Positions 46,411 through 64,000 of a DNA stretch of 64,000 nucleotides are shown piece by piece. The notes beneath the pieces are model-generated. The model worked only from the letters and a program-made list of their open reading frames with translations, did not search any database and was not told the origin of the DNA. The translations under genes were made by a program, and so were the position numbers. Source of the stretch: a virus. Within the stretch, counting starts at the first letter, position 1, and each line of letters begins with the position of its first letter. Location of the stretch: positions 1 through 64,000 of IMG/VR virus record IMGVR_UViG_3300037114_000073; one strand, written 5' to 3'.

Positions 46411-46422
46411 GCCCGGTTAGAA

Positions 46423-46497: not shown

Positions 46498-46498
46498 T

Positions 46499-46747: not shown

Positions 46748-46749
46748 TC

Positions 46750-47797: not shown

Positions 47798-47811
47798 TGT
47801 AGTCTCCTTTT

Positions 47812-48012: not shown

Positions 48013-48245
48013 TCTGCCCTCCGTAGAAGATATACACCTGGATCATCTGTTGCCTGGTACAAATTTAATCTTTTGTGTGCAGCAATCAACTGATCTTGCA
48101 ATGTTTCCATTTTCTTTTTGATGTACAAATAACAATAAGCTGCATCACCGCAAAATTCGGAACCACCTGGAGTAAGATCTTCCAAAGCTCTCATTGGATT
48201 TTCCCTATACAATTTACTTCTTGCAGCTGTTAATTCCTGTGGCAT
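48009..48245 (-). CDS. Unknown helical protein, 78 aa
   Basis: First gene after promoter motif copy 3, with a strong AAGGAGG before the ATG. Helical; includes FCGDAAYCYLYIKKKMETLQDQLIAAH. Function unknown. Confidence 0.6.
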   Translation of the reverse strand: MPQELTAARSKLYRENPMRALEDLTPGGSEFCGDAAYCYLYIKKKMETLQDQLIAAHKRLNLYQATDDPGVYLLRRAE

Positions 48246-48264
48246 CCGTTTTCCTCCTTGTGTT

Positions 48265-48277
48265 TATTATACAGATT
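48265..48277 (-). promoter_or_regulatory. Promoter motif copy 3 (AATCTGTATAATA)
   Basis: Exact motif with TATAAT at 48266-48271. Transcript start predicted near 48259, followed by a normal ribosome site. No -35 consensus. Confidence 0.7.
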
Positions 48278-48287
48278 TGGTCGCTTT

Positions 48288-49823: not shown

Positions 49824-49885
49824 TTTGATCTCCTTGATTTTTGAAATGTGGCGTTTTAGGTATGCGCTCCCCACCTAGTTACAAG

Positions 49886-50344
49886 TTATGCAGACTTCTT
49901 CTTCATGGTATGGACCTTTCCCTTCAATACAACCTTTCCTTTCTTGGTGCCAATCGAAATTCGCTGGCGGTGTGGGCGGTTGCGCTTCTCCCCCTTCTTC
50001 ATCTTGATCTTCTCTCCGCCAGTGATGATGAACTCACCTGAGACGTTTACGCAGCGATGACCACGCTTCGATTTGCACAAAGGGCAATCAATAGTGGAAA
50101 TAACTTTGGAAAAAATCTCCACAACTTTGGGAGAGATCTTCTTGCTATGCTTGGTGGACTTCTCAGACTTCTCAGACTTCTCAGACTTCGTGGAATGCTT
50201 CTTGGAGCTCTTTGACTTCATCATATTAATTCTCCTTTGTATTCGTTGATTGTTAAAATCTGTCTGGTAGCACTCATCAGAACAATAACTTTTCTTCTTA
50301 CGAGCACTCCAGAACGATAGTAGCTTTCCACATTGACAGTTCAT
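49886..50344 (-). CDS. Zinc-finger protein homologous to the FtsK N-terminus, 152 aa
   Basis: The full frame starts with a MNCQCGKLL...SYCSDECYQTDF zinc motif and overlaps the upstream gene by 4 nt. A second, strong start lies at 50224 (AAAGGAGAATTAAT upstream) after this motif, so two forms of 152 and 112 residues are possible. The rest has a repeated Lys/Ser/Glu linker, then CPLCKSKRGHRC, NVSGEFI and RNRPHRQR, matching the FtsK zinc finger almost residue by residue. It may bind the same target as the motor. Confidence 0.7.
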   Translation of the reverse strand: MNCQCGKLLSFWSARKKKSYCSDECYQTDFNNQRIQRRINMMKSKSSKKHSTKSEKSEKSEKSTKHSKKISPKVVEIFSKVISTIDCPLCKSKRGHRCVNVSGEFIITGGEKIKMKKGEKRNRPHRQRISIGTKKGKVVLKGKVHTMKKKSA

Positions 50345-50631
50345 TTGGCATCGTTTATTGCTTGAATTACCTGCTGCATTTCATTCCAATAGATTGCTAC
50401 TAATTGTCGAAGCTGTTGCTTATCCAACGACTCTGTATAAGCATCAATTTCTAACGGTGTACGATGCAATGCCAGATCGCAAGTAAGCTTGGCAACGTTC
50501 CGTTTCAAACGTTCATGCCACTCTTTTTGGCGAGCGGCAGCTCCAGTTGTAATCGTGTTTGCAATGTCTGTAACGTATGCTTCAATCTTTTCCTGCACAC
50601 GATTATCCTGAACAAATCGATGAAATATCAT
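50341..50631 (-). CDS. Unknown helical protein, 96 aa
   Basis: ATG with AGGAGGAAAG upstream. All-helical (VQEKIEAYVTDIANTI; LRQLVAIYWNEMQQVIQAIND). Overlaps both neighbours by 4 nt. Function unknown. Confidence 0.6.
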   Translation of the reverse strand: MIFHRFVQDNRVQEKIEAYVTDIANTITTGAAARQKEWHERLKRNVAKLTCDLALHRTPLEIDAYTESLDKQQLRQLVAIYWNEMQQVIQAINDAK

Positions 50632-50852
50632 GCTCTTTCCTCCTGAATTCTTCGGCAAGTTTGGCAATCGTCTTTGGGGTTGAATACTCCCTTTTCATAC
50701 AAATGGTCAACGAACTTTCCGCAGAGTGATTTTCTGGGAGTACCATATCCACCCAGTATATCTTTTACGGAAAGTGCTAAATGACATGTAGAACTTCCAC
50801 ACGCAACAAGTACATACGGATATTCTTTACTTGGTGCCAATTTCTTATCCAT
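50628..50852 (-). CDS. Small zinc-binding protein, 74 aa
   Basis: VACGSSTCHLAL, KSLCGKF and DCQTCRRI supply five Cys and a His. Similar Cys spacing occurs in short phage accessory proteins. Overlaps both neighbours. Function unknown. Confidence 0.6.
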   Translation of the reverse strand: MDKKLAPSKEYPYVLVACGSSTCHLALSVKDILGGYGTPRKSLCGKFVDHLYEKGVFNPKDDCQTCRRIQEERA

Positions 50853-51114
50853 AGATTAATTTTTCCTCCTTCCCATCTTTCTGCACAACAAAAACTCGCG
50901 TGAGAGGCCCGAACGAATCCCCATCTCCGGTGTAAACTCGGAGAACACGATAACCAAGGTCAGCAAGCTTGGGCCTGGCTGTTTTCTGTTCCCAATCGTA
51001 CCACGTCAAACCACTTTTGTTATTGAATTGAGGAAATGCAGTAGATGGCTGGGAACAAAATCCCAGTTCATAATCCGCTGCATCATTCCCAATAACATCA
51101 AGCAGATTTTGCAT
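50845..51114 (-). CDS. Unknown protein, 89 aa
   Basis: Alpha/beta small protein, MQNLLDVIGNDAADYELGF to FVVQKDGKEEKLIYG. Overlaps the HNH gene end by 17 nt. Family not recognised. Confidence 0.55.
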   Translation of the reverse strand: MQNLLDVIGNDAADYELGFCSQPSTAFPQFNNKSGLTWYDWEQKTARPKLADLGYRVLRVYTGDGDSFGPLTRVFVVQKDGKEEKLIYG

Positions 51115-51397
51115 GTTGTCTCTCCTTCATATGAAAGCTTCTGTGGCAAGTCCGATGGCAAGGTTTCCGGTTTGACGCATCATTGTTTTTGTGGTTGCCA
51201 TCCTGGTGGTGGATGGTGAGCTTCGTTTTGATGGGAATTGATCCCCTGATGATATGCCAAGTGCCATCGTCTGCAATCAAGTCTTCTAGCTTCAGTAAAG
51301 GTTCTTTGCAGAAATAGCACTTGGTTGCAGTTCCGAAATGATTCATCATCATTCGAAGCATTCTGAGTTCTGATCGACTACTTTTTCGCATGCTCAT
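51098..51397 (-). CDS. Small HNH endonuclease, 99 aa
   Basis: CYFCKEPLL, then KLTIHHQDGNHKNNDASN and CHRTCHRSFH form a compact HNH domain: zinc Cys pairs around HH...N...H. No DNA-binding extension, unlike the homing enzymes elsewhere. HNH proteins close to terminase often help in packaging cos-type genomes, and the terminase gene lies about 2 kb away, so packaging is possible here. Overlaps neighbours by 4-17 nt. Confidence 0.72.
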   Translation of the reverse strand: MSMRKSSRSELRMLRMMMNHFGTATKCYFCKEPLLKLEDLIADDGTWHIIRGSIPIKTKLTIHHQDGNHKNNDASNRKPCHRTCHRSFHMKERQHAKSA

Positions 51398-51576
51398 CCG
51401 ACATACTCCCCTGAAGAGAGAAGTCTGTCTTTGTAAATAACAAAAAATTTCAAACCCTTCTGCACCACTTTCGTTTCAACTCTCGCCTGAGATGCCAACT
51501 GTTTTGCTGCGCGCTCAGCTGCAGAAAGCTTGAAATGTTCACTCGATTCAAACCATCCAAATTCATAAGTTTTCAT
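51394..51576 (-). CDS. Unknown protein, 60 aa
   Basis: ATG coupled to the SWIM gene stop (ATGA). Reads MKTYEFGWFESSEHFKLSAAERAAKQLAS then a beta stretch FFVIYKDRLL. Function unknown. Confidence 0.55.
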   Translation of the reverse strand: MKTYEFGWFESSEHFKLSAAERAAKQLASQARVETKVVQKGLKFFVIYKDRLLSSGEYVG

Positions 51577-51722
51577 GCTGCCCTCCGCGTGGTGCCAATC
51601 GATTTCAGTTGAAGAATGTGTTTACAATCTTTTCTGGGAGTAGCAAAGTGCCATGCAGGACAACTGCAGGACCACTTTCGTCCGCGGAGAGTAATTGAAT
51701 ATTTTCGTCGCGCGTCGCTCAT
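51573..51722 (-). CDS. SWIM-type zinc finger mini-protein, 49 aa
   Basis: The frame YSITLRGRKWSCSCPAWHF...DCKHILQLKSIG shows the SWIM signature CxCxxxxx..CxH with the conserved Pro-x-Trp, a zinc motif that binds DNA or protein. At 49 residues it is the motif and little else. The stop overlaps the next start (ATGA), supporting translation; the ATG has no strong ribosome site. An overlapping frame on the same strand is less convincing. Confidence 0.65.
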   Translation of the reverse strand: MSDARRKYSITLRGRKWSCSCPAWHFATPRKDCKHILQLKSIGTTRRAA

Positions 51723-51746
51723 GGAACTGATTTTGAAAAACTTTTT

Positions 51747-52004
51747 TCATAATTCACACTCCGCTTCCATACTCCCATGAACCTGGATATAGCACTCGTC
51801 GCACAGTTGACCGTGACCGCATTCAATGGAAGCGGCTTGCTTTTCACACGCTTCACAATAATCATCGGGAACGCGTTTTCCTTCTCGTGTCACTTTTGTG
51901 AATGTAGCGGTCATGGGATTAATTTCTCCGAAAGTGGAAGGCCTAACAGTCCATACATCTGCTGGACCAAATACTTCACGGCGAACACGTTCACGAATTT
52001 TCAT
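51747..52004 (-). CDS. Zinc-binding protein, 85 aa
   Basis: ATG with GGAGGACA upstream. The C-terminal half holds CEACEKQAASIECGHGQLCDEC, a RING-like or zinc-ribbon Cys/His set. The N-terminal half is basic. Coupled to the tiny membrane protein upstream (ATGA). Function unknown. Confidence 0.62.
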   Translation of the reverse strand: MKIRERVRREVFGPADVWTVRPSTFGEINPMTATFTKVTREGKRVPDDYCEACEKQAASIECGHGQLCDECYIQVHGSMEAECEL

Positions 52005-52072
52005 ATTGTCCTCCAGAGCACCGTAATAAAGAAAACCACTGAGCAAAGGTAGATGTAGAAGTTTATTTTCAT
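52001..52072 (-). CDS. Tiny membrane protein, 23 aa
   Basis: Both ends overlap the neighbouring genes by ATGA, so it is translated in step with them. The sequence MKINFYIYLCSVVFFITVLWRTI is one membrane helix and little else. Its precise double coupling argues that it is a real gene rather than a chance frame. Confidence 0.55.
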   Translation of the reverse strand: MKINFYIYLCSVVFFITVLWRTI

Positions 52073-52284
52073 AGCATCACCCCCGCTTGCATAATCACAC
52101 GGCATTTACCACTGCGGGCTCCGGAAATGTTCTTTTGGTTTTTGCTGGTGATATGTGTGCGAGTCGTTTTCGCCAAAGTGCCGACTTCGAAATTTCTGTG
52201 TGATTGAATCTCGTCGCGGACTTCTTCGTCCACGTAAACTTTTAGAGGTACACCATTTACTGTTATGTTGCTCAGATCCGGCAT
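52069..52284 (-). CDS. Unknown protein, 71 aa
   Basis: Starts MPDLSNITVNGVPLKVYVDEEV with a beta hairpin; the C-terminal part is basic with SGARSGKC. GGAG precedes the ATG. Function unknown. Confidence 0.55.
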   Translation of the reverse strand: MPDLSNITVNGVPLKVYVDEEVRDEIQSHRNFEVGTLAKTTRTHITSKNQKNISGARSGKCRVIMQAGVML

Positions 52285-52321
52285 CGTAATCTCCTATGGA
52301 GTGGATGGTATCGGAATTTCG

Positions 52322-52345
52322 TGGTGCCAACGGAAATTTTAGTTT
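52322..52345. repeat. 24-bp direct repeat, copy 1
   Basis: Identical to 52680-52703. On the coding strand it contains AAATTTCCGTTGGCACCA and stands between a stop codon and the next ribosome site. Confidence 0.65.
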
Positions 52346-52552
52346 TTATCGTTTTGGAATGTGACCTGTTGCTTGCTTGCGAAAATGTGGATTATCAAAG
52401 GCAAAAAACTTATGCACCATTTTCTTCTGCTGAACATCGCTCGGATATCCTGAAATTGCTGCAACATATTCTGCAGTCATTTTCTTTCTGCGTGCAAGAG
52501 ATGGCTTCGATTTTGCCAACTCCAAAGTTAATGTTTCATGTTTATAAACCAT
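52346..52552 (-). CDS. Unknown basic protein, 68 aa
   Basis: ATG with GGAG upstream, overlapping the end of the 35-residue gene. Basic, with SKPSLARRKKMTAEYVAAISG. Ends next to direct-repeat copy 1. Function unknown. Confidence 0.5.
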   Translation of the reverse strand: MVYKHETLTLELAKSKPSLARRKKMTAEYVAAISGYPSDVQQKKMVHKFFAFDNPHFRKQATGHIPKR

Positions 52553-52649
52553 TTCTCCAACCTGGAGATAAGGAATAATTGATTTCAGCTTCGGATTTCA
52601 AAACCCAAGGATATGAGCGAGCAATCTTTTTCAATTCTGATTTCGTCAT
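52542..52649 (-). CDS. Small protein, 35 aa
   Basis: Strong AAAAGGAGAATTAAC before the ATG. Reads MTKSELKKIARSYPWVLKSE. Its end overlaps the next gene by 11 nt. Function unknown. Confidence 0.5.
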   Translation of the reverse strand: MTKSELKKIARSYPWVLKSEAEINYSLSPGWRNGL

Positions 52650-52679
52650 GTTAATTCTCCTTTTGAATTTTTTGTTCGA

Positions 52680-52703
52680 TGGTGCCAACGGAAATTTTAG
52701 TTT
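52680..52703. repeat. 24-bp direct repeat, copy 2
   Basis: Identical to 52322-52345. The coding-strand part touches the last codons of the SH3-like gene. Confidence 0.65.
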
Positions 52704-52915
52704 CAAAGTTTTTCAACATCAAATTCGGTGCAAGTGATTCCCGTATTTTTTGTCAGCTGAATCATCAACGAAAATTTTGCATTTTTCACATGGTTAACTT
52801 TTTGTAGTGGATCAGGGGTGATGCAACGAACAGTACCAATCGCACCAAAAGCACTTTCATAGGAACGACGAGTGGTTGTAACTTTAACGCGATCACCAAC
52901 TTTTAATGTTTTCAT
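52703..52915 (-). CDS. Small SH3-like protein, 70 aa
   Basis: First gene after the 52997-53025 promoter; AAGGAG precedes the ATG. KVGDRVKVTTTRRSYESAFGAIGTVRCITPDPL follows the KOW/SH3 pattern of strand, turn and glycine. Function unknown. Confidence 0.6.
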   Translation of the reverse strand: MKTLKVGDRVKVTTTRRSYESAFGAIGTVRCITPDPLQKVNHVKNAKFSLMIQLTKNTGITCTEFDVEKL

Positions 52916-52996
52916 ACGACGTTTCTCCTTTTCTACAATGTGTGAATTCATTGGCCTTTACGAAGGTGCATATTCTACACTTCGTGCATACCATTA

Positions 52997-53025
52997 TTGT
53001 AGATTCTGGAGGTATGCCTGTCAAG
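52997..53025 (-). promoter_or_regulatory. Sigma-70 promoter
   Basis: TTGACA (53020-53025), 17-bp spacer, TACAAT (52997-53002). A stem ACGAAG/CTTCGT starts about seven bases after the predicted transcript start. Drives the small-gene block. Confidence 0.82.
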
Positions 53026-53035
53026 GAAAAAACAG

Positions 53036-53048
53036 GTTATTTTAACCA
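53036..53048 (-). terminator. Weak terminator after the terminase gene
   Basis: GGTTA and TAACC form a 5-bp stem with a 3-nt loop, followed by TGTTTTTT on the minus strand. The next promoter begins right after it, marking an operon border. Confidence 0.5.
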
Positions 53049-53103
53049 ATGTTTATGGGGTTCTCAGTGGCCTGGAATTGATTAAAGACTGTAAAATCGA
53101 GGA

Positions 53104-55014
53104 TTATGTAGGATCTTGCTCTGGCTTAAACTCTTGCGGAATATCGCCATACTTTTCTTTATGCGGTTTAATTTCTGCAGGCAAATAACCCAATCTTCTG
53201 CTGCGAACAATTTGAGCAATAGCAAATGCCATCACACAGTCATCATGGCAGCCAACGTCTCCTTCTGGTCTTCCTTGTTTATCCTGGTTGCGAACGAAAG
53301 TGCTCATTTCCTCAATAAGCTTAAGGCTGTGAATTTTATTGGGAAATTCACTGAGATAATATTTTGCACGATTTAATGCCAGTGGACGAGTTTTCGGTGT
53401 TGTAGGGAATCCATCTATTTCCCGCTGTCTTCCTTGGCCACCATCCTGAGCTTTTTCTGTGATATGCCCTCTCCCCCATCCTTCCTTCCACCAATCTCTA
53501 TGCTTGTAAATATTCATGTAGGAACACGCACGCTGCATTGTAAGAATTACCGTTCCTCCATCATTGTTTCTTTCCACAGCGACAAGTGCATTATTATATC
53601 GTTCCCCTAGATCTGCTAAATCCCAACCAAATTCTTCTGGTAATAATTGTGAACGATATTCTGCAACTTGCTCTCCAGATTCTTCGTCAATTACCTCAGC
53701 AACGCTCCAGTCCAATCTGCTTGCGGGATCTTCATCACTGCCGACTTCCAATCCGGATGCTACGTCTGCTCCGATAATATAATTATGATGTGGCTTTTCT
53801 TGTTTGAAGATTGTAATTTTCCCATGCTTTTCCCTGGGAGAGTATGCAAGTAATTCTTTATAACGCTGACGAACGATTTCCTTATCGAAAAATGAACTGC
53901 CGGTTAATAGGAAACAGGTAATATCGTCTTCAGGATATTTCTCATCGAACTCATCTCTTAATTGTTCCTTCTTCATTCTGCGCCAAGCAATTTGATTTAG
54001 ATTTACTTGGACGCTTATTTGTTCCTGGTCTGCAATAAATAATAATTCGTCCTTCTGTAAAGAATCCTGTTCGACTGGTTTATCAAGATAATATTCATCA
54101 TGACGATTCCAGGTATGAAAGTGATATGTGAATTCTCTATATCCTTTTCCAGTGTCTCTTGCTCTCATACATTCGGAAAAGAAATACCCGCCATGTCCAT
54201 TGGCGGTGGATTCCATATCGAATGTTCCATCTTTCGGAATCGCTTCTTTCATATTTGCAAGAGTGGCCTCAGGACTTCCTTCCCATCTTGCGACTTCAGT
54301 TGCCACTACATGCTGGAGAGTTAATCCTTGCCCAACTTCTTCGACTTCAGCTGATGCACAACGAATAGCACAATCAATCTGATCAAATATTATTTCTTTT
54401 CTGTTGGACGCTACCGTGTGAAGTAGATGCTGGTGGAGTTCCTGTGCAAAGGAATTCTTTGAACGATCAAAAGGATCAACCATTCCAAACAGATTGTATA
54501 CGCGTTTAAGCATTCTAAAATGTGCTGTTGCATACTCACCTGTCTGGGAAATGAGAAGGCCATTATGTCCGGGATTTAAAATACAAGGAAGAAATAAACG
54601 GCGGATAATCATATACGTCGTGTATCCGCCTTGCCGTGGCTTTAGGAATATATTTCTTGAGCCAAGCTTTGATTCAATATCTCTTTGGATTGTATTTAAA
54701 GCAAAAGGAACAAGGTTACGGTTCCAGAAGATTGATTCAGATGGGAGTATTTCTTTTTCACCCTTTTCAGGCTGCTTACGCTGAATCCAACAAAAACGCA
54801 GCATGAACTCCTCAGGTCCATACTGCGTCCAAAGGTTTTGTAGTTGGAATAATTGTTCTTTTACACGACCGGGATCTGGTCCGTGGTAAGCATCTTTTGA
54901 TCTAGCAAATCCATATGTAGATTTTTGTGGTTGTACTAATTGCAGTCTTTCGGCAACAAGCTTTTTTACTAAAAGCTGGATCCCAGGATTAGAACTTTTA
55001 ACTAGAGCCCCCAT
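53104..55014 (-). CDS. terL: Terminase large subunit
   Basis: A 636-residue packaging motor. ATPase part: IFLKPRQGGYTTYM (about 122-135) is a terminase-type Walker A with an unusual Thr-Tyr end, and VATEVARWEG follows the expected acidic region. Nuclease part: NYIIGADVASGLE (first metal Asp), VAVERNNDGG and HDDCVMAFAIAQ (last acidic pair). It cuts and packages concatemeric DNA with the portal. No small subunit was recognised near it; it may be one of the small genes or outside the window. Confidence 0.88.
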   Translation of the reverse strand: MGALVKSSNPGIQLLVKKLVAERLQLVQPQKSTYGFARSKDAYHGPDPGRVKEQLFQLQNLWTQYGPEEFMLRFCWIQRKQPEKGEKEILPSESIFWNRNLVPFALNTIQRDIESKLGSRNIFLKPRQGGYTTYMIIRRLFLPCILNPGHNGLLISQTGEYATAHFRMLKRVYNLFGMVDPFDRSKNSFAQELHQHLLHTVASNRKEIIFDQIDCAIRCASAEVEEVGQGLTLQHVVATEVARWEGSPEATLANMKEAIPKDGTFDMESTANGHGGYFFSECMRARDTGKGYREFTYHFHTWNRHDEYYLDKPVEQDSLQKDELLFIADQEQISVQVNLNQIAWRRMKKEQLRDEFDEKYPEDDITCFLLTGSSFFDKEIVRQRYKELLAYSPREKHGKITIFKQEKPHHNYIIGADVASGLEVGSDEDPASRLDWSVAEVIDEESGEQVAEYRSQLLPEEFGWDLADLGERYNNALVAVERNNDGGTVILTMQRACSYMNIYKHRDWWKEGWGRGHITEKAQDGGQGRQREIDGFPTTPKTRPLALNRAKYYLSEFPNKIHSLKLIEEMSTFVRNQDKQGRPEGDVGCHDDCVMAFAIAQIVRSRRLGYLPAEIKPHKEKYGDIPQEFKPEQDPT

Positions 55015-55018
55015 TCAG

Positions 55019-55579
55019 TTATTGTGCAACCTCACTGGGAGTAGCTCCTCTCGACATGCTAACACCACTAGTGGTAACAGACGAAATCTTATTAGTAAGC
55101 ACTCGTATCTTTTTGCTAACTTCAGCATCACCTTGGTAATCAATTGTACCCAAAACCCCGCAATAAGGAAGATCTTTCTGATTAACTTCTTCTCGAACTA
55201 AACGATAATATTTATCGTCAAGATACGATCCTGTTGACATTCCCTCGAAATGTGCAAATGCTATACGAGATCCTATTTCAAAAGACGAACGATGATAAAT
55301 TGTTTCGTCTGATTCTCCACCTTCACTATCAATAATTACCCTACGTACTGTATAAGGTTTCCAAACTGCGATAACTATTCCTTCATAGACTGTTTTTTGC
55401 TGGGCGGTTTCTGCTAAAATAATTCCCCCTTCAGTAACGTGTTCCTTAGGGAGTACCCTTGTTAAACAATACGGATAATTAGGAATAAAACGTCTACCAC
55501 CAATATTTAATTCATATATTTCCTGGCAAATAGACGAAAGCTTTTTCTCAAGTAACGCGATTCTCTTTTCATTATTCAT
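55019..55579 (-). CDS. GroES-like co-chaperonin, 186 aa
   Basis: Residues 31-75: YPYCLTRVLPKEHVTEGGIILAE followed by TVYEGIVIAVWKPY matches the GroES barrel (hinge, mobile loop with GGI-I-L, then G-V-x-A-V-G). An N-terminal coiled-coil segment (KRIALLEKKLSSI) and a long C-terminal tail are added. As with T4 gp31, it may replace or redirect the host GroES so that GroEL folds the large capsid protein. It lies directly before the terminase gene and after a zinc-ribbon gene. Confidence 0.75.
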   Translation of the reverse strand: MNNEKRIALLEKKLSSICQEIYELNIGGRRFIPNYPYCLTRVLPKEHVTEGGIILAETAQQKTVYEGIVIAVWKPYTVRRVIIDSEGGESDETIYHRSSFEIGSRIAFAHFEGMSTGSYLDDKYYRLVREEVNQKDLPYCGVLGTIDYQGDAEVSKKIRVLTNKISSVTTSGVSMSRGATPSEVAQ

Positions 55580-55938
55580 TGTTTTACCTTCGAGGCTAGA
55601 TTATTCATCTGTAACGTTTCTTTTACATTCTTTTCTGTTGGTGCAATTAATGATGATTGCTTTGTTTCTACTTTTGCCCAAGTAGGAATCATATATCCAT
55701 GAGAATTAAAATGGCTAACAGCGAATGTATAAGCTGTTCCACAATTGGGGCACTTATCTAACTTCTCATGTGCAAAAGCAATAACCGTTACGTCAATAGA
55801 ATTTAAAATTCTGGGTCTAGGAATCTTAACTACTATTTCTTCTTGACAGTTTTGGCATTTAAACCTAGCTGCTATTGGAAGTGCTCGTCCTGCATCTGGA
55901 ACTGGTTGTTGTGGTTGATTATTATTTTCTTCTGTCAT
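55576..55938 (-). CDS. Zinc-ribbon protein, 120 aa
   Basis: ATG with GGGGAG upstream. CQNCQEEIVV and CPNCGTAYTF give a CxxC...CxxC zinc ribbon about 35 residues apart. Stop overlaps the GroES-like start. Function unknown; DNA- or protein-binding role likely. Confidence 0.65.
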   Translation of the reverse strand: MTEENNNQPQQPVPDAGRALPIAARFKCQNCQEEIVVKIPRPRILNSIDVTVIAFAHEKLDKCPNCGTAYTFAVSHFNSHGYMIPTWAKVETKQSSLIAPTEKNVKETLQMNNLASKVKQ

Positions 55939-56714
55939 CGTACAAGCTCCCCTGTGCAAGCTGAAAATACTTTGTGTAGTTGAACCGATATTCTAAGACT
56001 CGGATATTGTTTCTGCCATTCTAGGCAACGTTGTAAATTATCATTATTTACTGAGTTCTCAAAATTGATCGGCTGGATAAACACGGGTTTCCTTTTTGAA
56101 AGCTCTACTAAGTCAATATCCCAAAAACTTTTATCGTCAAACATAACTTGCATCTTAAATAAATCATCGGTAGTAAAATTATCATCAATTAATACTTTTA
56201 ATTCATCTGCCCTATTAATCATCGATGAATAGCAATTAAGTTTCGGTGATAGTGTTACCCATATTCCTTGATCTAAATGCTTATTAACTGTTCCTGATGT
56301 TTCAATATGTATCTTCTTATCTTTATGCCATAGATAAGTAATTAATGTTGTAAGATCGTGATCTAATGGTTCTCCTCCTGTAATACAAACGTGTTCTACA
56401 TCAACTGGAATACGATTCATTAATTGTTCTATATTTAAACGTTCCTTTACACGATAATCGGTGTCACAAGGAAATTCTAATTCGTGTGCACTTGTACACT
56501 TGTGAGTATATACAGGAAGTAAAGGCATCATGTTAAGTTTATTCTCGATCATCTTCTGATTATCATTTAAAGGAAATAATTCATATCTATTCTTAGGATA
56601 AAGTTTACCAACACTGCATCCAGCTAAGCGAATAAAATATTGCATCTGTCCTGCATAACATCCCTCACCTTGTGGACTTACGAATATTTCACTTATTGGA
56701 TATTTCTTTTCCAT
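55935..56714 (-). CDS. queE: 7-carboxy-7-deazaguanine synthase QueE
   Basis: A radical SAM enzyme of 259 residues that contracts the carboxytetrahydropterin ring to 7-carboxy-7-deazaguanine. EIFVSPQGEGCYAGQMQYFIRLAGC matches the QueE start; the cluster cysteines are spread over an insertion (LAGC, HKC, then FPCDTDYR), a layout found in some QueE proteins instead of the compact CX3CX2C. CITGGEPLDH is the SAM-binding GGE motif. The ATG overlaps the preceding gene. It works between QueD (60394-60978) and QueC (1369-2178). Confidence 0.85.
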   Translation of the reverse strand: MEKKYPISEIFVSPQGEGCYAGQMQYFIRLAGCSVGKLYPKNRYELFPLNDNQKMIENKLNMMPLLPVYTHKCTSAHELEFPCDTDYRVKERLNIEQLMNRIPVDVEHVCITGGEPLDHDLTTLITYLWHKDKKIHIETSGTVNKHLDQGIWVTLSPKLNCYSSMINRADELKVLIDDNFTTDDLFKMQVMFDDKSFWDIDLVELSKRKPVFIQPINFENSVNNDNLQRCLEWQKQYPSLRISVQLHKVFSACTGELVR

Positions 56715-56895
56715 GCCACTTTGCTCCTTCTTCTTGTACTCTAGGTTGCGTTACACTATACAATACGTTTATGAATTGTGTAAGTAAATAAAAAGAATCT
56801 GCTGGGGTTAACGTACAACCCCTTAACTCTACAGTTAACTTATTACATATTTTATCTAAGACTTCTGTTTTCATATTACCTAATCCTATCGTCAT
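56689..56895 (-). CDS. Unknown protein, 68 aa
   Basis: ATG with GGAGGG upstream; overlaps queE by 26 nt and the preceding gene by 20. Helical (LDKICNKLTVELRG...DSFYLLTQFINVLYS). Function unknown. Confidence 0.55.
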   Translation of the reverse strand: MTIGLGNMKTEVLDKICNKLTVELRGCTLTPADSFYLLTQFINVLYSVTQPRVQEEGAKWHGKEISNK

Positions 56896-57328
56896 ACAAC
56901 CCTCCGGTTCTTTTTCTCTTGGCAACATCTCTTGATACCGTTGGTTCTTCTTTCTTTACTTCAAATCCGAAAACACGAAATAATGATTTAACTGCTCCGA
57001 ATAAACCGCCTACATACGGTGTCTTATCTCCTGTTTGTTCTTCATCTGGATATAGGATTAATATACCACCCTCTTGTGACATGTCTGCATCTATAGGGGT
57101 AGGCATCTTATTCATATCATTTGATAGATAATATTGTGTTAATACGACATCTTCGGGATTCTCTATTCCTGCTTCTTTCATTTCACAAATCTTACACTTG
57201 CTAATCGTTCTGATCAGAGGATTTACTGCTCGCATTATTTCTCTACCACATTGACGGCAGAAAATACTCCTCAGCCCGTCTGCTCTGACTCTTCCACCGT
57301 CCTGATGATGGGTGAACTCTCTTGCCAT
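56876..57328 (-). CDS. Zinc-ribbon protein, 150 aa
   Basis: CRQCGREIM and CKICEM, 20 residues apart, form a zinc ribbon near the N-terminus; the rest is of mixed structure. Overlaps the GT9-like gene by 58 nt in another frame and the next gene by 20 nt. Function unknown. Confidence 0.55.
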   Translation of the reverse strand: MAREFTHHQDGGRVRADGLRSIFCRQCGREIMRAVNPLIRTISKCKICEMKEAGIENPEDVVLTQYYLSNDMNKMPTPIDADMSQEGGILILYPDEEQTGDKTPYVGGLFGAVKSLFRVFGFEVKKEEPTVSRDVAKRKRTGGLYDDRIR

Positions 57329-58080
57329 AAATCCTCCCAGACTGAAAACAAAAAATTAGCTGTGACATTGTTTCCAACTACAGCACGATATTTATCTAGT
57401 CCTGAGTTACCGTATAATATTCCTTGCAGATTAGATGGAAAGAATTCTATGACTGACTTCTTTAATACGGCTGCTATATACGTTGCTGTACTTGCTTCTC
57501 CTATAACTATCTTTGCATGATTAATATATCCTATAAATGACATCGGAGCAGCTTCATATTTTTCCATTTCTCTACCATCTATGATTATATTTAATTCTGG
57601 ATAATTATTTAAAAGATAATCATAAAACTTTTGTGCTTCTTCTCCATCACCCCAGGGAAATATTAATACATCCATCATTAAATCTTTTTCTGGTTCTTCC
57701 ACCTGGAGTGCAGCTAATATAGGCCACTGTCCCGCTCCAGTTCCTATTAATGTATTCAACCCTGCGGTTATATGTATTCCAACTCTACTAGATATCTTTT
57801 CAGCACGTTGGAAATCAAAATTAATAAAACAATCAAATTCTCCTCTTTGCCATTCATTCCATCCTGAATAATCTACAACTGGTATGTTATCTTTGACTAC
57901 TCTCAATGCGGGTTCGAAGTATTTAAATTTCTCATCCATACGAATGGTTATTAGATAATGTTTTTCTCTTTCATTTCTCTGAGCTCCAGTTGCAGCTTGC
58001 AGAGAATAATCCTGGACTATAGCCATAGCTAGGAGAAAATCTCTTAGATTATCGGGCATCTGGATGAGGATTGAGTCCAT
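57271..58080 (-). CDS. GT9-like glycosyltransferase, 269 aa
   Basis: DSILIQMPDNLRDFLLAMAIVQDYS at the start and AKIVIGEASTATYIAAVLKKSVIEFFP in the second half follow the two Rossmann strands of the GT9/heptosyltransferase family, with the G-x-x-(S/A)-T...A sugar-nucleotide motif. Shorter than bacterial members. Next to a GT4 enzyme and an HNH gene. Target sugar and acceptor unknown. Confidence 0.6.
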   Translation of the reverse strand: MDSILIQMPDNLRDFLLAMAIVQDYSLQAATGAQRNEREKHYLITIRMDEKFKYFEPALRVVKDNIPVVDYSGWNEWQRGEFDCFINFDFQRAEKISSRVGIHITAGLNTLIGTGAGQWPILAALQVEEPEKDLMMDVLIFPWGDGEEAQKFYDYLLNNYPELNIIIDGREMEKYEAAPMSFIGYINHAKIVIGEASTATYIAAVLKKSVIEFFPSNLQGILYGNSGLDKYRAVVGNNVTANFLFSVWEDLWQESSPIIRTVEESEQTG

Positions 58081-58084
58081 AATT

Positions 58085-58630
58085 TTATTGCACCCTATAA
58101 GTCTTACCTTTTAATACAGCATAAATTGGCCAAGATGATACCTTAAACTTATCAGCTAAATCTTGTTGTGTATACTTTCCTGTTTTATATAATTTCTTTA
58201 TTTCTTTAACTTGTTCCATTGTTAGTTTAGAATGCCAATTATCCTCTCCTCTAAGCCCGTGCCATTCACGACGACCCTTCTTCATCATATCATGTACATT
58301 TTGTTTCTGTGTCCCTAACCATAAATGATTAGGATTTACACAAATAGGATTATCACAAGAATGACAAACTTTTAATCCATGACGACGACCTATAAAAAAC
58401 TCATACGAAGCTACATGAGCAAACTGTATCCGTTTTCCATGTAATTTGAATAAACACTTACCATAACCATAACTATCAGTTGCACCTTTCCATTCCCAAC
58501 ATTCATCTTCTTCACCTATATCTACATAATGTAAAAATTGTGCAAACTTAAAATAAATATCAAACTTCTTATAATTATAACGAGCTATTTGCTCACTCTG
58601 TGTTGGATGTACTTTTTGAGATTTAGACAT
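58085..58630 (-). CDS. HNH homing-type endonuclease with C-terminal helix-turn-helix, 181 aa
   Basis: DECWEWKGATDSYGYGK, then CHSCDNPICVNPNHLWLGT is the HNH core; the C-terminus has SKLTMEQVKEIKKLYKTGKYTQQDLADKFKVS, the same DNA-binding unit as in the enzymes at 2178-2714 and 29877-30413. Inserted between two glycosyltransferase-side genes. Likely a mobile element. Confidence 0.82.
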   Translation of the reverse strand: MSKSQKVHPTQSEQIARYNYKKFDIYFKFAQFLHYVDIGEEDECWEWKGATDSYGYGKCLFKLHGKRIQFAHVASYEFFIGRRHGLKVCHSCDNPICVNPNHLWLGTQKQNVHDMMKKGRREWHGLRGEDNWHSKLTMEQVKEIKKLYKTGKYTQQDLADKFKVSSWPIYAVLKGKTYRVQ

Positions 58631-58907
58631 GACTTTTTAATTTCTTATCTGGATCTACAAAAACAGCTTTGTAATAGCAACTCGGACATACAAAACTATT
58701 TTGAGCTTTCCCACCTAACTCAGGAAATAATGGCAAACAATGTTTTTTACGAAAATAAGTTCTACAAGTACTACACCAAAACATTTCTTCTCTTGGTTTC
58801 TTTCTTACATCCATCCAAGCTTCAGCAACGGCACTTCCAGCCATACATACAAATACTATAACCATTAAAACAATTAGAAAAACGATATGGTGTGAAATAA
58901 ATCTCAT
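58623..58907 (-). CDS. Membrane-anchored zinc-ribbon protein, 94 aa
   Basis: ATG chosen at MRFISHH; a longer frame overlaps the GT4 gene further. Residues 7-28 (IVFLIVLMVIVFVCMAGSAVA) form a membrane helix or signal anchor. CSTCRTYF and CPSCYYK form a zinc ribbon in the soluble part. Overlaps its two neighbours by 4 and 8 nt. Function unknown. Confidence 0.6.
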   Translation of the reverse strand: MRFISHHIVFLIVLMVIVFVCMAGSAVAEAWMDVRKKPREEMFWCSTCRTYFRKKHCLPLFPELGGKAQNSFVCPSCYYKAVFVDPDKKLKSHV

Positions 58908-59995
58908 TGGCTTAACACTTGCTTGAATACGTACTTCCACGTATCAGCTATAACAGCTGCATTATAAAATTTGAACATAACATTGTACATTTTTTGAGCA
59001 ATATCTTTTCTCATCTCGGGTTCGTTGATTAGTGTAGTTAATTTTGTTTTCCACTGGGAAATGGAATTGCAAAGTAACCATTTAAGATCGTCACCACCTA
59101 GTTCGCAGAATTCTCTATACGGTTGTACATCACTTACTAAACAAGGAATCTTTATTGCTGCGGCTTCAAGTAACTTGATATTCGATTTTGATCTGTTGAA
59201 TCTGCTATCTACCAGCGGTGCAATCGATATATCCCATCCCCAACTAGCAAAACGGTTTGCATATTCTCCTACGGCACATCCTTGTCTGTACCCCGTTTGT
59301 GGATGGATAGCTATTTTATTTGTAACGACTGTTCTTGATTTAGCTCTACCAACTAATCTACCTTGTTTATCATACTTAGCTTTCCAAGTATCTTTTATAT
59401 CTAATGCTGCTGCTCCTACAATCTGCATAATTGCTGTTGGATTCTTATCTAATACTTCTGGAATAATATCGAATACATCTTTGCAGTCTTCTGAATGTGT
59501 AGTAGAACCACCCCAACCGATCATTACTAGATTATCTTTTACTAAGTTTTTAGGATAGAAAAGATCTGTATCAATTGCATTAGGCACAATATAGATTGGT
59601 TTATTTAACCTGAATCCTGTACGTGCTGCTGATGCCAGCCTTTGAGTACTGACTGTTATTGCATCAGCTTCAGCTGCACATTTCCAAAACCCTTCTTGCA
59701 TAGAATCAAATACTTGTTTTCCAGGATTAGCAGATGGAAGATCCCAAAGGTTATCATCTGTGTCATAGATAACTTTTATTCCTACTTCTCTCATTCTCTT
59801 AATAGCATTCAAGTTATGATCTGATACTTGTCGCTGTACGATAGCTATCTTACATCCTTGTATTTCCCTTAAATCAACTGGTCCGAGTCTAAATACAAAA
59901 GACGATCCTGGAATATTTAAATGTGGTTGATACATACGCCACAAGGCACATCCATCAATCGCAGCTGGGAAGAAAACTATTTCAGATGGATTCAT
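58904..59995 (-). CDS. GT4-family glycosyltransferase, 363 aa
   Basis: A GT-B enzyme: N-terminal VFFPAAIDGCALWRMYQPH; middle GIKVIYDTDDNLWDLP and EADAITVSTQRLASA; then IYIVPNAIDTDLFYPKN (typical VPNGID-x-x-x-F), IGWGGSTTHSEDCKDV and SNIKLLEAAAIKIPCLVSDVQPYRE, the E-x7-E-like donor site. Such enzymes glycosylate lipids, polysaccharides, proteins or DNA. It lies in the same run as the GT9-like gene, so a sugar pathway is probable. Confidence 0.82.
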   Translation of the reverse strand: MNPSEIVFFPAAIDGCALWRMYQPHLNIPGSSFVFRLGPVDLREIQGCKIAIVQRQVSDHNLNAIKRMREVGIKVIYDTDDNLWDLPSANPGKQVFDSMQEGFWKCAAEADAITVSTQRLASAARTGFRLNKPIYIVPNAIDTDLFYPKNLVKDNLVMIGWGGSTTHSEDCKDVFDIIPEVLDKNPTAIMQIVGAAALDIKDTWKAKYDKQGRLVGRAKSRTVVTNKIAIHPQTGYRQGCAVGEYANRFASWGWDISIAPLVDSRFNRSKSNIKLLEAAAIKIPCLVSDVQPYREFCELGGDDLKWLLCNSISQWKTKLTTLINEPEMRKDIAQKMYNVMFKFYNAAVIADTWKYVFKQVLSQ

Positions 59996-60213
59996 TGCTT
60001 TACTTCCTTAGCTGATTTGAACTTAATAATTCCAAATGCCCCAAGTGGGTAGAATATTCCAGAGTCACCCCTTATTCCCATAGTACTGGTATACTTAACA
60101 AATACTTCCTTAGCTGATTTAATTGAGTCGGAATGAATTCTGATACTGTCGTACATTTTAGATTTCACTCTCTTGTATTTAACCAATGAGCTAAACTTTA
60201 TTTTTACGATCAT
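59992..60213 (-). CDS. Unknown protein, 73 aa
   Basis: Contains two similar SIKSAKEVF and KFKSAKEVK segments, a small internal repeat. ATG coupled to the upstream stop (ATGA). Family not recognised. Confidence 0.55.
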   Translation of the reverse strand: MIVKIKFSSLVKYKRVKSKMYDSIRIHSDSIKSAKEVFVKYTSTMGIRGDSGIFYPLGAFGIIKFKSAKEVKQ

Positions 60214-60527
60214 TTATGTTTTCCATGTGACTTAGACTTATGTTTAGATTTATGTTTCTTCTTATTGTCAGCTAACTGTTTTTTAAGCTTCTCTGTTTCG
60301 TATCCCACTGCTGTAACATCCTCATAACCAAGAATCCAAAGTGTATTTTTTCTTAACTGTTTAAGTACTTCACCAACTGGACGATAGGGATTTCTATCCC
60401 TTCCCTGTTTCTTCTTGGCTGCAGCTCGTCCCTTTTGATAGTAATGATTCTTCTTCATTCTTTTGATGTAATTTTCCAGATTCCTCAATGCTAACGTTCT
60501 GCGATCTATTCCTAACGATGATTTCAT
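60210..60527 (-). CDS. Basic Lys/His-rich protein, 105 aa
   Basis: ATG with GAGG upstream. Helical start (LALRNLENYIKRMKKNHYYQKGRAAAKKK) and a disordered basic end (KKKHKSKHKSKSHGKHK). Overlaps the 3' end of queD by 134 nt in another frame. Possibly nucleic-acid binding; family unknown. Confidence 0.55.
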   Translation of the reverse strand: MKSSLGIDRRTLALRNLENYIKRMKKNHYYQKGRAAAKKKQGRDRNPYRPVGEVLKQLRKNTLWILGYEDVTAVGYETEKLKKQLADNKKKHKSKHKSKSHGKHK

Positions 60528-60978
60528 AATCCTCACGCGTATATGTAGCTGAACATTTACTTGTCTCCCATAGTTTAACCTGTACTAAATTACAATCCAA
60601 ATGTGCTAATAATCCTGGTGCAACATCTTCTACAAAATACTGTGCTAAATTTTCTACTGTTGGATTACACGGAAGTCCTATTACTGCTGACGAATCGTGG
60701 CAGAATGCCATCGGTGCTGCTATTCTCATTGCTGTGTAAAGATGATCCTCTTTCCATAACAACATCTTATGATCCCAATTCTTTTCTAACCAATTACACA
60801 ATACATCTTTTACTACTCCAAAATCTAATACTCTTCCTAGTTTATCTAAACCATTCATGGAACCTATAGTTAATTCAAATCGATAATTATGCCCATGAAT
60901 ATTCCGACAGGCTCCTTCATGACCATATACTCTATGCCCCGCACAAATCTCATGCTCGCGGGTAATAAGGACTGCCAT
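60394..60978 (-). CDS. queD: 6-carboxy-5,6,7,8-tetrahydropterin synthase QueD
   Basis: Catalyses the first committed step of preQ0 synthesis from dihydroneopterin triphosphate. AGHRVYGHEGACRNIHGHNYRFELTI holds the three zinc His and the catalytic Cys; DHKMLL and PTVENLAQYF are further QueD signatures, and VKLWETSKCSATYT is the closing strand. The enzyme would normally end about residue 155; here 40 more residues (from RNRSQNV on) follow and overlap another gene in a second frame. They may be dispensable or the result of a late frameshift. Confidence 0.85.
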   Translation of the reverse strand: MAVLITREHEICAGHRVYGHEGACRNIHGHNYRFELTIGSMNGLDKLGRVLDFGVVKDVLCNWLEKNWDHKMLLWKEDHLYTAMRIAAPMAFCHDSSAVIGLPCNPTVENLAQYFVEDVAPGLLAHLDCNLVQVKLWETSKCSATYTREDYEIIVRNRSQNVSIEESGKLHQKNEEESLLSKGTSCSQEETGKG

Positions 60979-60981
60979 AAA

Positions 60982-61719
60982 TTAGCCTCCAATAAAGTTG
61001 AGCATTTCATCAATATCTATATCTTTAGAATATGAAACTAAAAACGTATACCCATATTTCTTACACCATTTCTCAGCGGATTCAAATTTAGCTTCGTCTT
61101 GTTTTGTAGTTCGTGTGCTAAATTCAATTACAAGTTTTTCACCTGTTAATAATGTAACATAATAATCTGGGAAGAAAGTTCGCTTTAATCCTTTCCATAC
61201 ATAAGATATACGCGGATAATCTTTCTTAAATTTTTTAACTGCTTCAACCATATCTAATAACATTGCAAACATTAATTCTATACCGGTATTACCATGGCAT
61301 ATTATTTCCCCACCTTTAGCAGTTTTAATTTCAACTCCATCATTGCATAACCCAGGCTTAGTACCACCGTTTGCATAAGAACGTAACAAACGTTGTTGAT
61401 TAGCTTTTCTATTGTATCTTTTACTATAATACTTAACTAGTTTACGTTTATGCCTCTCTCTCAATTTAGGATCACTATTTATCTTAATCTGACTCTCTGA
61501 ACGTAAACGACGTTGCTCTGGATCTTTAAATCGACGTCGTTGTCCTTTAGAAGCATTAACATGATACTCAGTAGAATTTAATACTTTCTTTCTTGCAACC
61601 ATAAAATGCTTTACATATAATTTATTATCCCATAATGCCTTTCTTAAACGTGACATCTTAGCTCTATATACTGGATCCTGCCAACGCTTATTAGCAGCTA
61701 TTTTGTGCGCTTCGGACAT
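60982..61719 (-). CDS. Mobile endonuclease: NUMOD3-like repeats plus TnsA-like nuclease, 245 aa
   Basis: AAGGAA precedes the ATG. N-terminal NKRWQDPVYRAKMSRLRKALWDNKLYVK and KGQRRRFKDPEQRRL are NUMOD3-like repeats. The C-terminal part has TGIELMFAMLLDMVEAV (helix with Glu), KRTFFPDYYVTLLTGEKLVIEFSTR (PD...E-x-S; the last catalytic residue is changed from Lys) and a closing AEKWCKKYGYTFLVS strand. Probably homing-type; the missing Lys may reduce activity. It lies between endonuclease VII and queD. Confidence 0.7.
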   Translation of the reverse strand: MSEAHKIAANKRWQDPVYRAKMSRLRKALWDNKLYVKHFMVARKKVLNSTEYHVNASKGQRRRFKDPEQRRLRSESQIKINSDPKLRERHKRKLVKYYSKRYNRKANQQRLLRSYANGGTKPGLCNDGVEIKTAKGGEIICHGNTGIELMFAMLLDMVEAVKKFKKDYPRISYVWKGLKRTFFPDYYVTLLTGEKLVIEFSTRTTKQDEAKFESAEKWCKKYGYTFLVSYSKDIDIDEMLNFIGG

Positions 61720-62144
61720 GGTTTCCTTAAACCTACAGTAGATTCATAACTCCGTAAATATTTAGCTGCACGTAAAAGGTTGATTGGTTTATCATGCCAC
61801 TTTCTAAGTCCTGTATTACAGGCCCAACACAACAATCCTCTTGTACTTCTTTTAAGTAATTCACGCTTAACCGACTTAATAGCTTTCTTTCGTACTTTAT
61901 TCTTCTTACGTATATCAAGAAACTCTTCCACTCTAGCTTGCCAATACCCACCTCTTTTAAAAGATACAACTTTTAACTTTTCTACCCAATGTGCATGGTC
62001 AACAGCAAGGGGTAGATTCTTCGGTGGCCGTCTACATATTGCACATTTGTGATGCTGTTCTTTGTCAACTCTTCTATACCACTTAAGACCTCTCCCATAT
62101 TTCCACTTAAGGTATACATCTCGTTTTCGTTCCTTTTCTGTCAC
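61698..62144 (-). CDS. Endonuclease VII-like Holliday junction resolvase, 148 aa
   Basis: CAICRRPPKNLPLAVDHAHWVEKLK and RGLLCWACNTGLRKWHDKPINLLRAAKYLRSY match the recombination endonuclease VII signature (C-x-x-C, DH-x-H, R-G-L-L-C-x-x-C-N-x-G). A basic insertion lies between the two halves. It cleaves branched DNA before packaging. The start is a GTG at the predicted transcript start of promoter copy 4, so a leaderless mRNA is likely. Its stop overlaps the mobile nuclease start by 22 nt. Confidence 0.78.
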   Translation of the reverse strand: MTEKERKRDVYLKWKYGRGLKWYRRVDKEQHHKCAICRRPPKNLPLAVDHAHWVEKLKVVSFKRGGYWQARVEEFLDIRKKNKVRKKAIKSVKRELLKRSTRGLLCWACNTGLRKWHDKPINLLRAAKYLRSYESTVGLRKPCPKRTK

Positions 62145-62148
62145 AATG

Positions 62149-62161
62149 TATTATACAGATT
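62149..62161 (-). promoter_or_regulatory. Promoter motif copy 4 (AATCTGTATAATA)
   Basis: Exact motif with TATAAT at 62150-62155, preceded by CTAGTTCAAATAAGA as at copy 2. The GTG of the endonuclease VII gene lies about at the predicted transcript start. Confidence 0.7.
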
Positions 62162-62180
62162 CAGTCTATTCTTATTTGAA

Positions 62181-62411
62181 CTAGTTGTACTTTCCGTAAA
62201 CAATTTCAAGTCTAGCAAATTGTTTAGGAGTTAATGCTTTCTCTTGTTTGATAAACCAATCAATCATACTTCCTACAAATTCAACTTCCCAAATCGATAG
62301 TTTATCTTCATCCTCTAAATGAGTAAGCATCGCTAGTGTACGTTTTCCTGTTTCATTTAAACCAGTACTGTCTACAGTAGAAGTGTGAGCTCTGACTCTT
62401 TTTCTAGCCAT
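62181..62411 (-). CDS. Unknown protein, 76 aa
   Basis: Overlaps the following gene by 40 nt at its start. The C-terminal half, FVGSMIDWFIKQEKALTPKQFARLEIVYGKY, is a helical pattern I recall from small phage proteins near replication or packaging genes, without function. Ends where promoter copy 4 begins. Confidence 0.55.
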   Translation of the reverse strand: MARKRVRAHTSTVDSTGLNETGKRTLAMLTHLEDEDKLSIWEVEFVGSMIDWFIKQEKALTPKQFARLEIVYGKYN

Positions 62412-62788
62412 GATTCACCTTCCTTATTTGCTACTTTATGTACTAGAATGTTACCTTTCTTTGTATGTCCTGCTGATGCCTGTATAATCGTAAGTTTCTT
62501 TCCTTGTAGATTTTTAACTCTTGCTCCGTTTACAAATTTAAGTTTTTTACGAACTGGAATAGTATCATATCCTGTATTTCTATCTGGTTGGGATGCTCTG
62601 GATATTACTTGGTCTTCTCTAACTTTACCTGTAGCTTTCAGCGCATTCAATACTCTACTATGGAATGGTGGTGCTCCTGCTTCCATTGACGATAATTGTG
62701 ATGAATCTGTCATCTTAGAAAAGTTATTTCCACCTACTGGTATTAATGCTGATGGTGGAAGTACTTCACCTTTTTTCTCATCTGCCAT
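62372..62788 (-). CDS. Unknown protein, 138 aa
   Basis: Starts MADEKKGEVLPPSALIP with AGGAGG upstream; beta-rich C-terminal half KLTIIQASAGHTKKGNILVHKV. Possibly a virion-associated protein. Family not recognised. Confidence 0.55.
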   Translation of the reverse strand: MADEKKGEVLPPSALIPVGGNNFSKMTDSSQLSSMEAGAPPFHSRVLNALKATGKVREDQVISRASQPDRNTGYDTIPVRKKLKFVNGARVKNLQGKKLTIIQASAGHTKKGNILVHKVANKEGESWLEKESELTLLL

Positions 62789-62800
62789 GTTACTCCTCCT

Positions 62801-63556
62801 TTAGTTAACTGTTACTGACTGCAAGTCCTGCAATAACTGTGCCTGGTTATAGGTGTTAGGTGCTACTCCTGATGCAACCCAATCCTGGGAAAGTAATGCA
62901 TACGCTTCTGAACAGTACTTGTGGAAGAACGGCCAGCTCATCGTAAGTAGTCCTCCCCATGTAATACAGGTAAGACCATTAACATCGTATTTAGGAACAA
63001 ATACACAATGTCCGCCCCATGATTCTGGAGCATCTGTTCCATCACTTACTGGAACTACATTCCAGGAAGTCTGTCCTTGGGCGGTAAGAGGAAGTTCTAC
63101 TCCAATATACGTTCCTCCAAACAAATAAATCGCTTGCTTTACATGTATCGGATTCAAAGGACTGACTGCCATAAAAGCTAGTAATTGATGACCGTCAAAT
63201 CCATTCTTTCTCCAATCATTTAACACATCTAATTCTACACCACCTTGATCTGTTGTAGGATCTCCAACTACGTATCCATCCCAATCAGAATAGTACTGGG
63301 TAATTATTTGATCTGGGAATGTTGGTAAACCTACGCCTGTAGCAACATCCCAAACTTGTACTGCATGGCCAGTGCCTGCTATGGTGCAACAGCTTAGTGT
63401 ATCATTTAACATCTCACCCCATTCGGTTACTCCTCCAGTGTAATCAGTTTCATCCGGAGGAGCTGGAGCTTGATCAGTATACTTAGACATGAGTAGTGTC
63501 CTCATGTCATGTCTGACTGCATTTTTACCTAACTTTACTTTTGTAAAGTCAATCAT
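62801..63556 (-). CDS. Papain-like cysteine protease-type protein, 251 aa
   Basis: EMLNDTLSCCTIAGTGHAVQVW (residues 48-69) holds the candidate catalytic Cys (56 or 57) after the N-terminus; WGGHCVFVPKYDVNGLTCITWGG (180-202) holds the candidate His (183), the order of papain-like enzymes. Phages of soil bacteria carry such proteins; they may be lytic or act on the virion or host. No signal peptide is seen. Its stop is 13 nt before the next gene, and its ATG is directly coupled to the upstream gene. Confidence 0.65.
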   Translation of the reverse strand: MIDFTKVKLGKNAVRHDMRTLLMSKYTDQAPAPPDETDYTGGVTEWGEMLNDTLSCCTIAGTGHAVQVWDVATGVGLPTFPDQIITQYYSDWDGYVVGDPTTDQGGVELDVLNDWRKNGFDGHQLLAFMAVSPLNPIHVKQAIYLFGGTYIGVELPLTAQGQTSWNVVPVSDGTDAPESWGGHCVFVPKYDVNGLTCITWGGLLTMSWPFFHKYCSEAYALLSQDWVASGVAPNTYNQAQLLQDLQSVTVN

Positions 63557-64000
63557 TAGTTACCCCACTTAACTTTTACTTGTTTAGCTGCATTATCCAC
63601 AACAGGATCATTGACTGATGTATGCAAAACAACGGTATACTTTTTCTTGAAATCACTTCCATTCTTTACAGTGAAAGGTTTTCCAAGTACAGTCTTAACT
63701 GGCTTGAGGCTGGTTTTACCTTCCAACTGTAGAATGAAATTATCTGCGGAGATAAGTGCTCCACCAATTGCATTAACTAGATTTTCAATCTTCTGTCTGG
63801 TTGCAGTATCCAAGACTTGAATTACAGTTAAAATACTGTCAACATCATTTTCACTTGTCTGGACTAATGAAGCTAGCGCAGTTTGGAATGTTTTATTCGT
63901 AGCTAAATCACTTTGATACTGGGTAATGTAGGATTCTACTGCTGCTACGTCTTTCTCACCTTTTGTGATCCAAGATTGAATTTGTGCATCAACAGTGGCT
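63556..64000 (-). CDS. Unknown protein, start beyond window, 147 residues seen
   Basis: The frame is open to the right edge. Visible part: ATVDAQIQSWITKGEKDVAA, then a helix, then LVNAIGGALISADNFILQLEGKTSLKPVKTVLGKPFTVKNG with a beta C-terminus. Its stop overlaps the protease start by one base. No family recognised; an N-terminal part is missing. Confidence 0.6.
   Translation of the reverse strand, partial: ATVDAQIQSWITKGEKDVAAVESYITQYQSDLATNKTFQTALASLVQTSENDVDSILTVIQVLDTATRQKIENLVNAIGGALISADNFILQLEGKTSLKPVKTVLGKPFTVKNGSDFKKKYTVVLHTSVNDPVVDNAAKQVKVKWGN

Follow-up and report, generated by a model that had tools for sequence, protein, structure and literature searches.

The endonuclease VII (EndoVII) gene of an uncultivated virus opens with a GTG five bases behind a TATAAT hexamer, which raises the question whether its transcript begins at the start codon itself, and what would read such a promoter. 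The window (the whole stretch of DNA that was analysed) comprises 64,000 of the 64,426 bases of the virus record, has a GC content of 38.6% and carries nearly all of its genes on the minus strand. It encodes a terminase, a portal protein, an FtsK-like protein, a DnaB-like helicase, a primase, a 5'-3' exonuclease, an SF2 helicase and EndoVII.

Searches with portal and capsid protein sequences detected relatives, whose contigs reach 131 kb in length; the window probably represents about half a genome. Portal, major capsid and EndoVII sequences each revealed no match in the phage collection, no 4-kb DNA match of the window was found, and searches of viral contigs with the EndoVII or helicase protein detected no close relatives. 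TerL relatives were too distant for use.

Start of the endonuclease VII gene

The features around the EndoVII start are:

61698-62144, minus strand: Endonuclease VII (PF02945) gene, GTG start, no Shine-Dalgarno (SD) sequence, 148 aa
62155-62150, minus strand: -10 hexamer TATAAT, 5 nt before the EndoVII GTG
62149-62161, minus strand: promoter core AATCTGTATAATA, one of four exact copies, ahead of EndoVII
62170-62184, minus strand: shared block CTAGTTCAAATAAGA, which includes the stop codon of the upstream gene and an AT-rich box near -30

The ORF 61698-62144 matched the Endonuclease_7 profile (PF02945) with 45.1 bits (cut-off 23.6) over profile positions 4-81 of 82, and the domain begins at residue 12. 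On the minus strand, TATAAT is followed by ACATT (62149-62145) and GTG (62144-62142). The frame is shut nine bases ahead of this GTG by a TAA that sits within the TATAAT, and the next usual in-frame start, the GTG at 61931, is 71 codons on and within the domain. Since the upstream frame is closed and the next usual start is inside the domain, the start should be the GTG at 62144 or ATT, a non-standard start one codon ahead of it. Neither an SD upstream of this GTG nor an alternative usual start carrying one was found; among the 89 window genes examined an SD is present in 69 and missing from 20. Coordinates, closed frame and missing SD all bear out the opening TATAAT-ACATT-GTG described in the earlier note.

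Copies of the promoter element in the window

The AATCTGTATAATA 13-mer has four exact copies in the window, all on the minus (coding) strand and each just before a gene; 60 dinucleotide-shuffled versions of the window contained none. The other three copies belong to the following features:

14127-15716, minus strand: SF2 helicase (UvsW-like) gene, GTG start 6 nt after TATAAT, no SD
15722-15757, minus strand: helicase promoter, second copy of block and core
48265-48277, minus strand: third core copy, before gene 48009-48245, which is leadered (SD AAGGAGG, ATG 20 nt after TATAAT)
11190-11202, minus strand: fourth core copy, before gene 10923-11168 (GAGGA, ATG 22 nt after TATAAT)

At the fourth copy a TTG at 4 nt is an alternative start; the leadered reading is preferred. 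Candidate NTG codons at +4 sharing the frame with an SD-led ATG were inspected by eye and dropped.

An upstream block common to the EndoVII and helicase sites had been noted before, and it holds: CTAGTTCAAATAAGA has just two exact copies in the window, at 62184-62170 and 15757-15743, and at both sites its TAG serves the preceding gene as stop codon. With up to three mismatches allowed, the 15-mer was found six times in the window against 4.26 expected, which is no enrichment; only the two exact copies matter. The layout at the helicase gene (TATAAT at 15728-15723, AAACAT, GTG at 15716) agrees with that at EndoVII in having a GTG after TATAAT, but its spacer is six bases and not five, so the two are not the same as had been claimed. 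Nor are they clearly two independent genes of one design, as a 36-nt stretch of their promoters is 81% identical, and the promoters could be copies of one another. Independent evidence for the layout has to come from the relatives.

The helicase gene and its orthologues

We collected 15 helicase orthologues, the window included, with 34-57% identity to the window protein over the aligned parts; a match in G18, nearly identical to that in G19, was left out of the count. The predicted N-termini of all 15 align with each other and with those of two annotated phage UvsW proteins, and this fixes the start codon. A -10 hexamer is found 5-6 nt ahead of it in five orthologues (GTG in the window and G29; ATG in G27, G20 and G32, the last with the hexamer TACTAT) and 9 nt ahead in three more (G33, G35, G28). 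The remaining seven are preceded by an SD, weak in some cases, or, in G19, overlap the preceding gene. Judged by these alignments, the putative leaderless state of the helicase gene has persisted or been regained over long periods, yet is not obligatory.

At EndoVII and helicase alike, a -10 hexamer within 5-9 nt precedes a start codon that is consistent with protein homology (the EndoVII domain and the helicase N-termini). The proposed leaderless-type start at both genes is supported, and the layout recurs in relatives. Folding of the two predicted 5' RNA ends gave weak structure (z 0.75 and 1.46 against shuffles) and was left out of the evidence because it does not differ clearly from shuffles.

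In two relatives the helicase orthologue is split in two with about 0.4-0.7 kb between the parts (coding strand 40932-43104 in G016 and 22651-24474 in G020). The insert in G016 encodes a relative of the window protein 60982-61719. An intron or intein with a homing endonuclease is a possible explanation for these inserts.

The element across related genomes

The strand bias of the core is also seen in relatives, where CTGTATAAT occurs 13 to 1 in G015 and 8 to 0 in G027. In G016 the core has drifted to TTTGTATAAT; G033 and G028 carry TGTATCAT. In an alignment of 26 sites from four genomes, positions -16 to -7 are nearly invariant (TCTGTATAAT; in G016 the C is a T) and include a conserved T-C-T-G at -16 to -13, beyond the hexamer. 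Around -32 to -29 lies a weak A-rich box, which is invisible at some sites (G15 62128 and 89302). As the 26 sites were picked by their TGTATAAT core, only alignment columns outside the core count as evidence.

The 13 genomes contain 52 coding-strand TGTATAAT sites, of which 10 lie inside genes, 12 have no start within 30 nt and 30 are usable. The start codon is 5-8 nt downstream in nine of the usable sites and 15-30 nt downstream in 21 (19 with SD), and none of the 30 has a start at 9-14 nt. Such a gap is expected if a leader must either be long enough for an SD or be missing altogether, and it agrees with transcription starting some 6-9 nt below the hexamer. By the same geometry the missing SD at spacings of 5-9 nt is partly a matter of room. 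Leaderlessness was also suggested to be the expression mode of this promoter class, and other motif-driven genes were proposed for comparison. That comparison gave a split picture, with nine of the 30 sites short-spaced and 19 with an SD leader; two of the four window sites likewise have ordinary SD leaders, so the class does not impose leaderlessness.

The association is also detectable independently of the motif. TATAAT stands 5-8 nt before the start in 7 of 254 SD-less genes (mean of 300 shuffles 0.41, maximum 3), whereas in SD genes it is mostly 15-23 nt before the start. For TANNNT at 5-8 nt, 36 SD-less genes were counted against a mean of 18.8 and a maximum of 31 in 300 shuffles. The observation exceeds chance. 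A contrast of TANNNT at 5-6 nt between SD-less (30/254) and SD genes (8/936) was set aside as biased, because the SD itself excludes a hexamer there and the stop codons TAA and TAG inflate the count. The exact promoter pattern was further detected in 14 viral-contig records; each had a single copy, the loci retrieved matched no protein of the window, and these hits were taken as chance.

Two sites with an ATG 8 nt after TGTATAAT and no SD (G024 42862 and G023 9065) precede homologous proteins of 164/165 aa, function unknown; from the shared layout this pair appears to be a second conserved leaderless gene.

The endonuclease VII locus in relatives

EndoVII was recognisable in two of the 13 relatives searched, G15 and G28, and starts directly at the promoter in neither. 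In G15, a homologue (59%) of the gene before EndoVII (window 62181-62411) is followed by the core and by an ATG 5 nt after TATAAT, which opens a 69-aa ORF; EndoVII starts at the overlapping stop of this ORF. The place of the promoter and the apparent leaderless layout are thus retained in G15 with a different first gene. The leaderless case for EndoVII itself therefore rests on the window and on synteny.

A sigma-like factor as candidate reader

A gene for a possible reader of the element lies at the other side of the window:

5726-6466, minus strand: divergent sigma70-family factor, GTG start with SD AAGGAG, ORF open from ATG 6502
6529-6557, minus strand: host-sigma-type promoter TTGACA-17-TATAAT (12/12), before the sigma-like gene

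The promoter at 6557-6529 is the sole 12/12 match in the scanned stretches 1-20000 and 45000-64000. In several relatives, the sigma-like family (window 5726-6502) adjoins the 5'-3' exonuclease gene. A search of a PDB set with the family profile revealed FliA at 1.4e-4. Sigma70_r2 matched five of ten scanned members (G019 6.4e-7, G23 0.001, G35 0.0071, G33 0.0079, window 0.14), G019 alone passing the cut-off, and the other five showed no match; Sigma70_r4 gave no matches in the four records searched. The structure model of the window protein is of middling confidence (pLDDT 67.8). Its residues 18-96, the predicted domain 2, superpose on SigE with Z 9.2 (2.0 A over 71 residues). Of the 50 structure matches listed, nearly all are sigma factors or RNA polymerase complexes; the best E value with Foldseek was 0.02. 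We conclude that the phage encodes a sigma70-family factor, albeit a divergent one that by itself falls under the Pfam cut-off in the window.

The gene at 4661-4891 (minus strand) encodes a small Cys-rich, zinc-ribbon-like protein, which adjoins the sigma-like gene in several relatives and is related to the segment behind the sigma-like region of the G019 protein.

In phiEco32, promoters read by the phage sigma (tAATGTAtA) have their start sites 6-8 bp downstream of the element (PMC8948821). These gp36 promoters resemble the ones described here in that the phage encodes a sigma, in having a single -10-type element that contains TGTATA and in the start 6-8 bp downstream, which is a predicted one in the present phage (PMC8948821). 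Unlike in phiEco32, the link between sigma and element is drawn here by analogy, and on this basis the divergent sigma70-family factor likely reads the promoter class. The word leaderless is absent from the phiEco32 paper (PMC8948821).

Proposed account

The -10 element, its spacing, the lack of an SD or another usual start and the recurrence in relatives can be read directly from the DNA. From these we infer, with a probability of roughly 0.74, that EndoVII is expressed from a (near-)leaderless mRNA made at a phage-sigma promoter and translated from a 5'-terminal GUG. Host polymerase would make the sigma-like factor early, from the host-type promoter, and host RNA polymerase carrying this factor would, as in phiEco32, read the element and start transcription 6-9 bases below the -10 hexamer. 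EndoVII would head a transcript whose 5' end lies at the GTG or within about two bases of it, although a leader of 1-5 nt may be present, and ribosomes would bind directly to the 5'-terminal GUG. Genes with a short SD-carrying leader would also be driven by this promoter class, so the leader layout would be set gene by gene.

Alternative explanations

A leaderless transcript could also arise if the element were a normal host sigma70 promoter whose -35 region is poor, the layout being a habit of the host, for example of Acidobacteriota. This explanation differs from the phage-sigma account only in the reader of the promoter, and we consider it possible but rather unlikely. TATAAT matches a host -10, two of the three capsid relatives from genome collections are in Acidobacteria/Terriglobia MAGs (the third MAG is labelled Bacillota), and 13.3% of the genes in three Acidobacteria genomes were reported to be leaderless (Zheng 2011, PMC3160421). 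However, the T-C-T-G and the A-rich box conserved beyond the hexamer are unlike TTGACA, the only complete sigma70 promoter detected is at another place, and binning of phage contigs into MAGs is weak evidence for a host. Moreover, 763 candidate starts from two relative-carrying MAGs, a small sample, showed no peak at 5-8 nt.

The position of the A-rich box, which would replace the -35 region ahead of replication and recombination genes, recalls T4 middle promoters, and as there a MotA-like phage activator bound at the -30 box might act with host sigma70. The box is weak and cannot be seen at sites such as the two in G15, and an activator of this kind is unlikely.

EndoVII might instead be translated by an SD-independent internal start on a longer operon transcript, TATAAT being a relic or serving other genes. 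Genes are indeed densely packed on one strand, and SD-less genes exist in the window. An internal start would be indifferent to its distance from the element, though, and the fixed spacing (5-6 nt at both genes, 5-8 nt in nine of 30 sites, the gap at 9-14 nt) counts against it; we regard such an origin as quite improbable. Reading by a single-subunit, T7-like RNA polymerase, for which a recurring element on one strand would be typical, is hardly credible with a -10-like core, no PF00940 match in four records (a search whose control was also silent) and no polymerase among 10, mostly large, G015 ORFs.

Relation to known leaderless systems

The UvsW helicase and endonuclease VII belong to the same protein families as in T4-type phages; the present phage is unrelated and its gene-start layout is another. 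In lambda, cI is a repressor gene with an AUG start. As with the leaderless cI mRNA, a phage gene would be read here from a 5'-terminal start (PMC9031893, PMC3160421), but from GUG, for replication/recombination genes and at a repeated promoter. Bacterial leaderless mRNAs (TANNNT about 12 bp above the start; PMC3160421) share the -10 hexamer near the start and the lack of an SD, whereas here the genes are those of a phage, the promoters have extra conserved bases and SD-led genes occur in the same class. As a leaderless start, GUG is described as working poorly in E. coli and Caulobacter (PMC9031893) and better in mycobacteria, Saccharopolyspora and Streptomyces (PMC9031893, PMC4633059). Mycobacterial leaderless RTG starts (PMC4633059) are similar in the use of GTG; unlike in mycobacteria, SD-led genes dominate in this phage.

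The further suggestion that leaderless starts serve when host translation is altered found no evidence in the sequence. It resembles the MazF stress-ribosome model, which, according to a review, other laboratories could not reproduce (PMC9031893). That a family of uncultivated large tailed phages runs a split regulon with its own sigma, and that the leaderless subset (helicase, EndoVII and several small proteins) has been retained through long evolution for an advantage in timing or resistance when SD-led translation is saturated or blocked in infection, is a very doubtful proposal.

Bacteria are already known to have leaderless genes, and phages to have single ones. In the phage lineage studied here, a single promoter class precedes both SD-led and putative leaderless genes. 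The helicase orthologues occur in either state and offer a natural experiment on what makes a gene leaderless. For uncultivated phages, a GTG right after TATAAT would be a practical rule in start calling.

Other features of the window

Genes similar to QueC, QueE and QueD are scattered on the minus strand (1369-2196, 55935-56714 and 60394-60978), which suggests a 7-deazaguanine DNA modification. Two paralogous HNH endonuclease genes (2178-2714 and 58085-58630, minus strand) have a 111-nt stretch in common at 70% and are likely homing endonucleases. An exact 24-nt direct repeat is found at 52322-52345 and 52680-52703, 358 nt apart.
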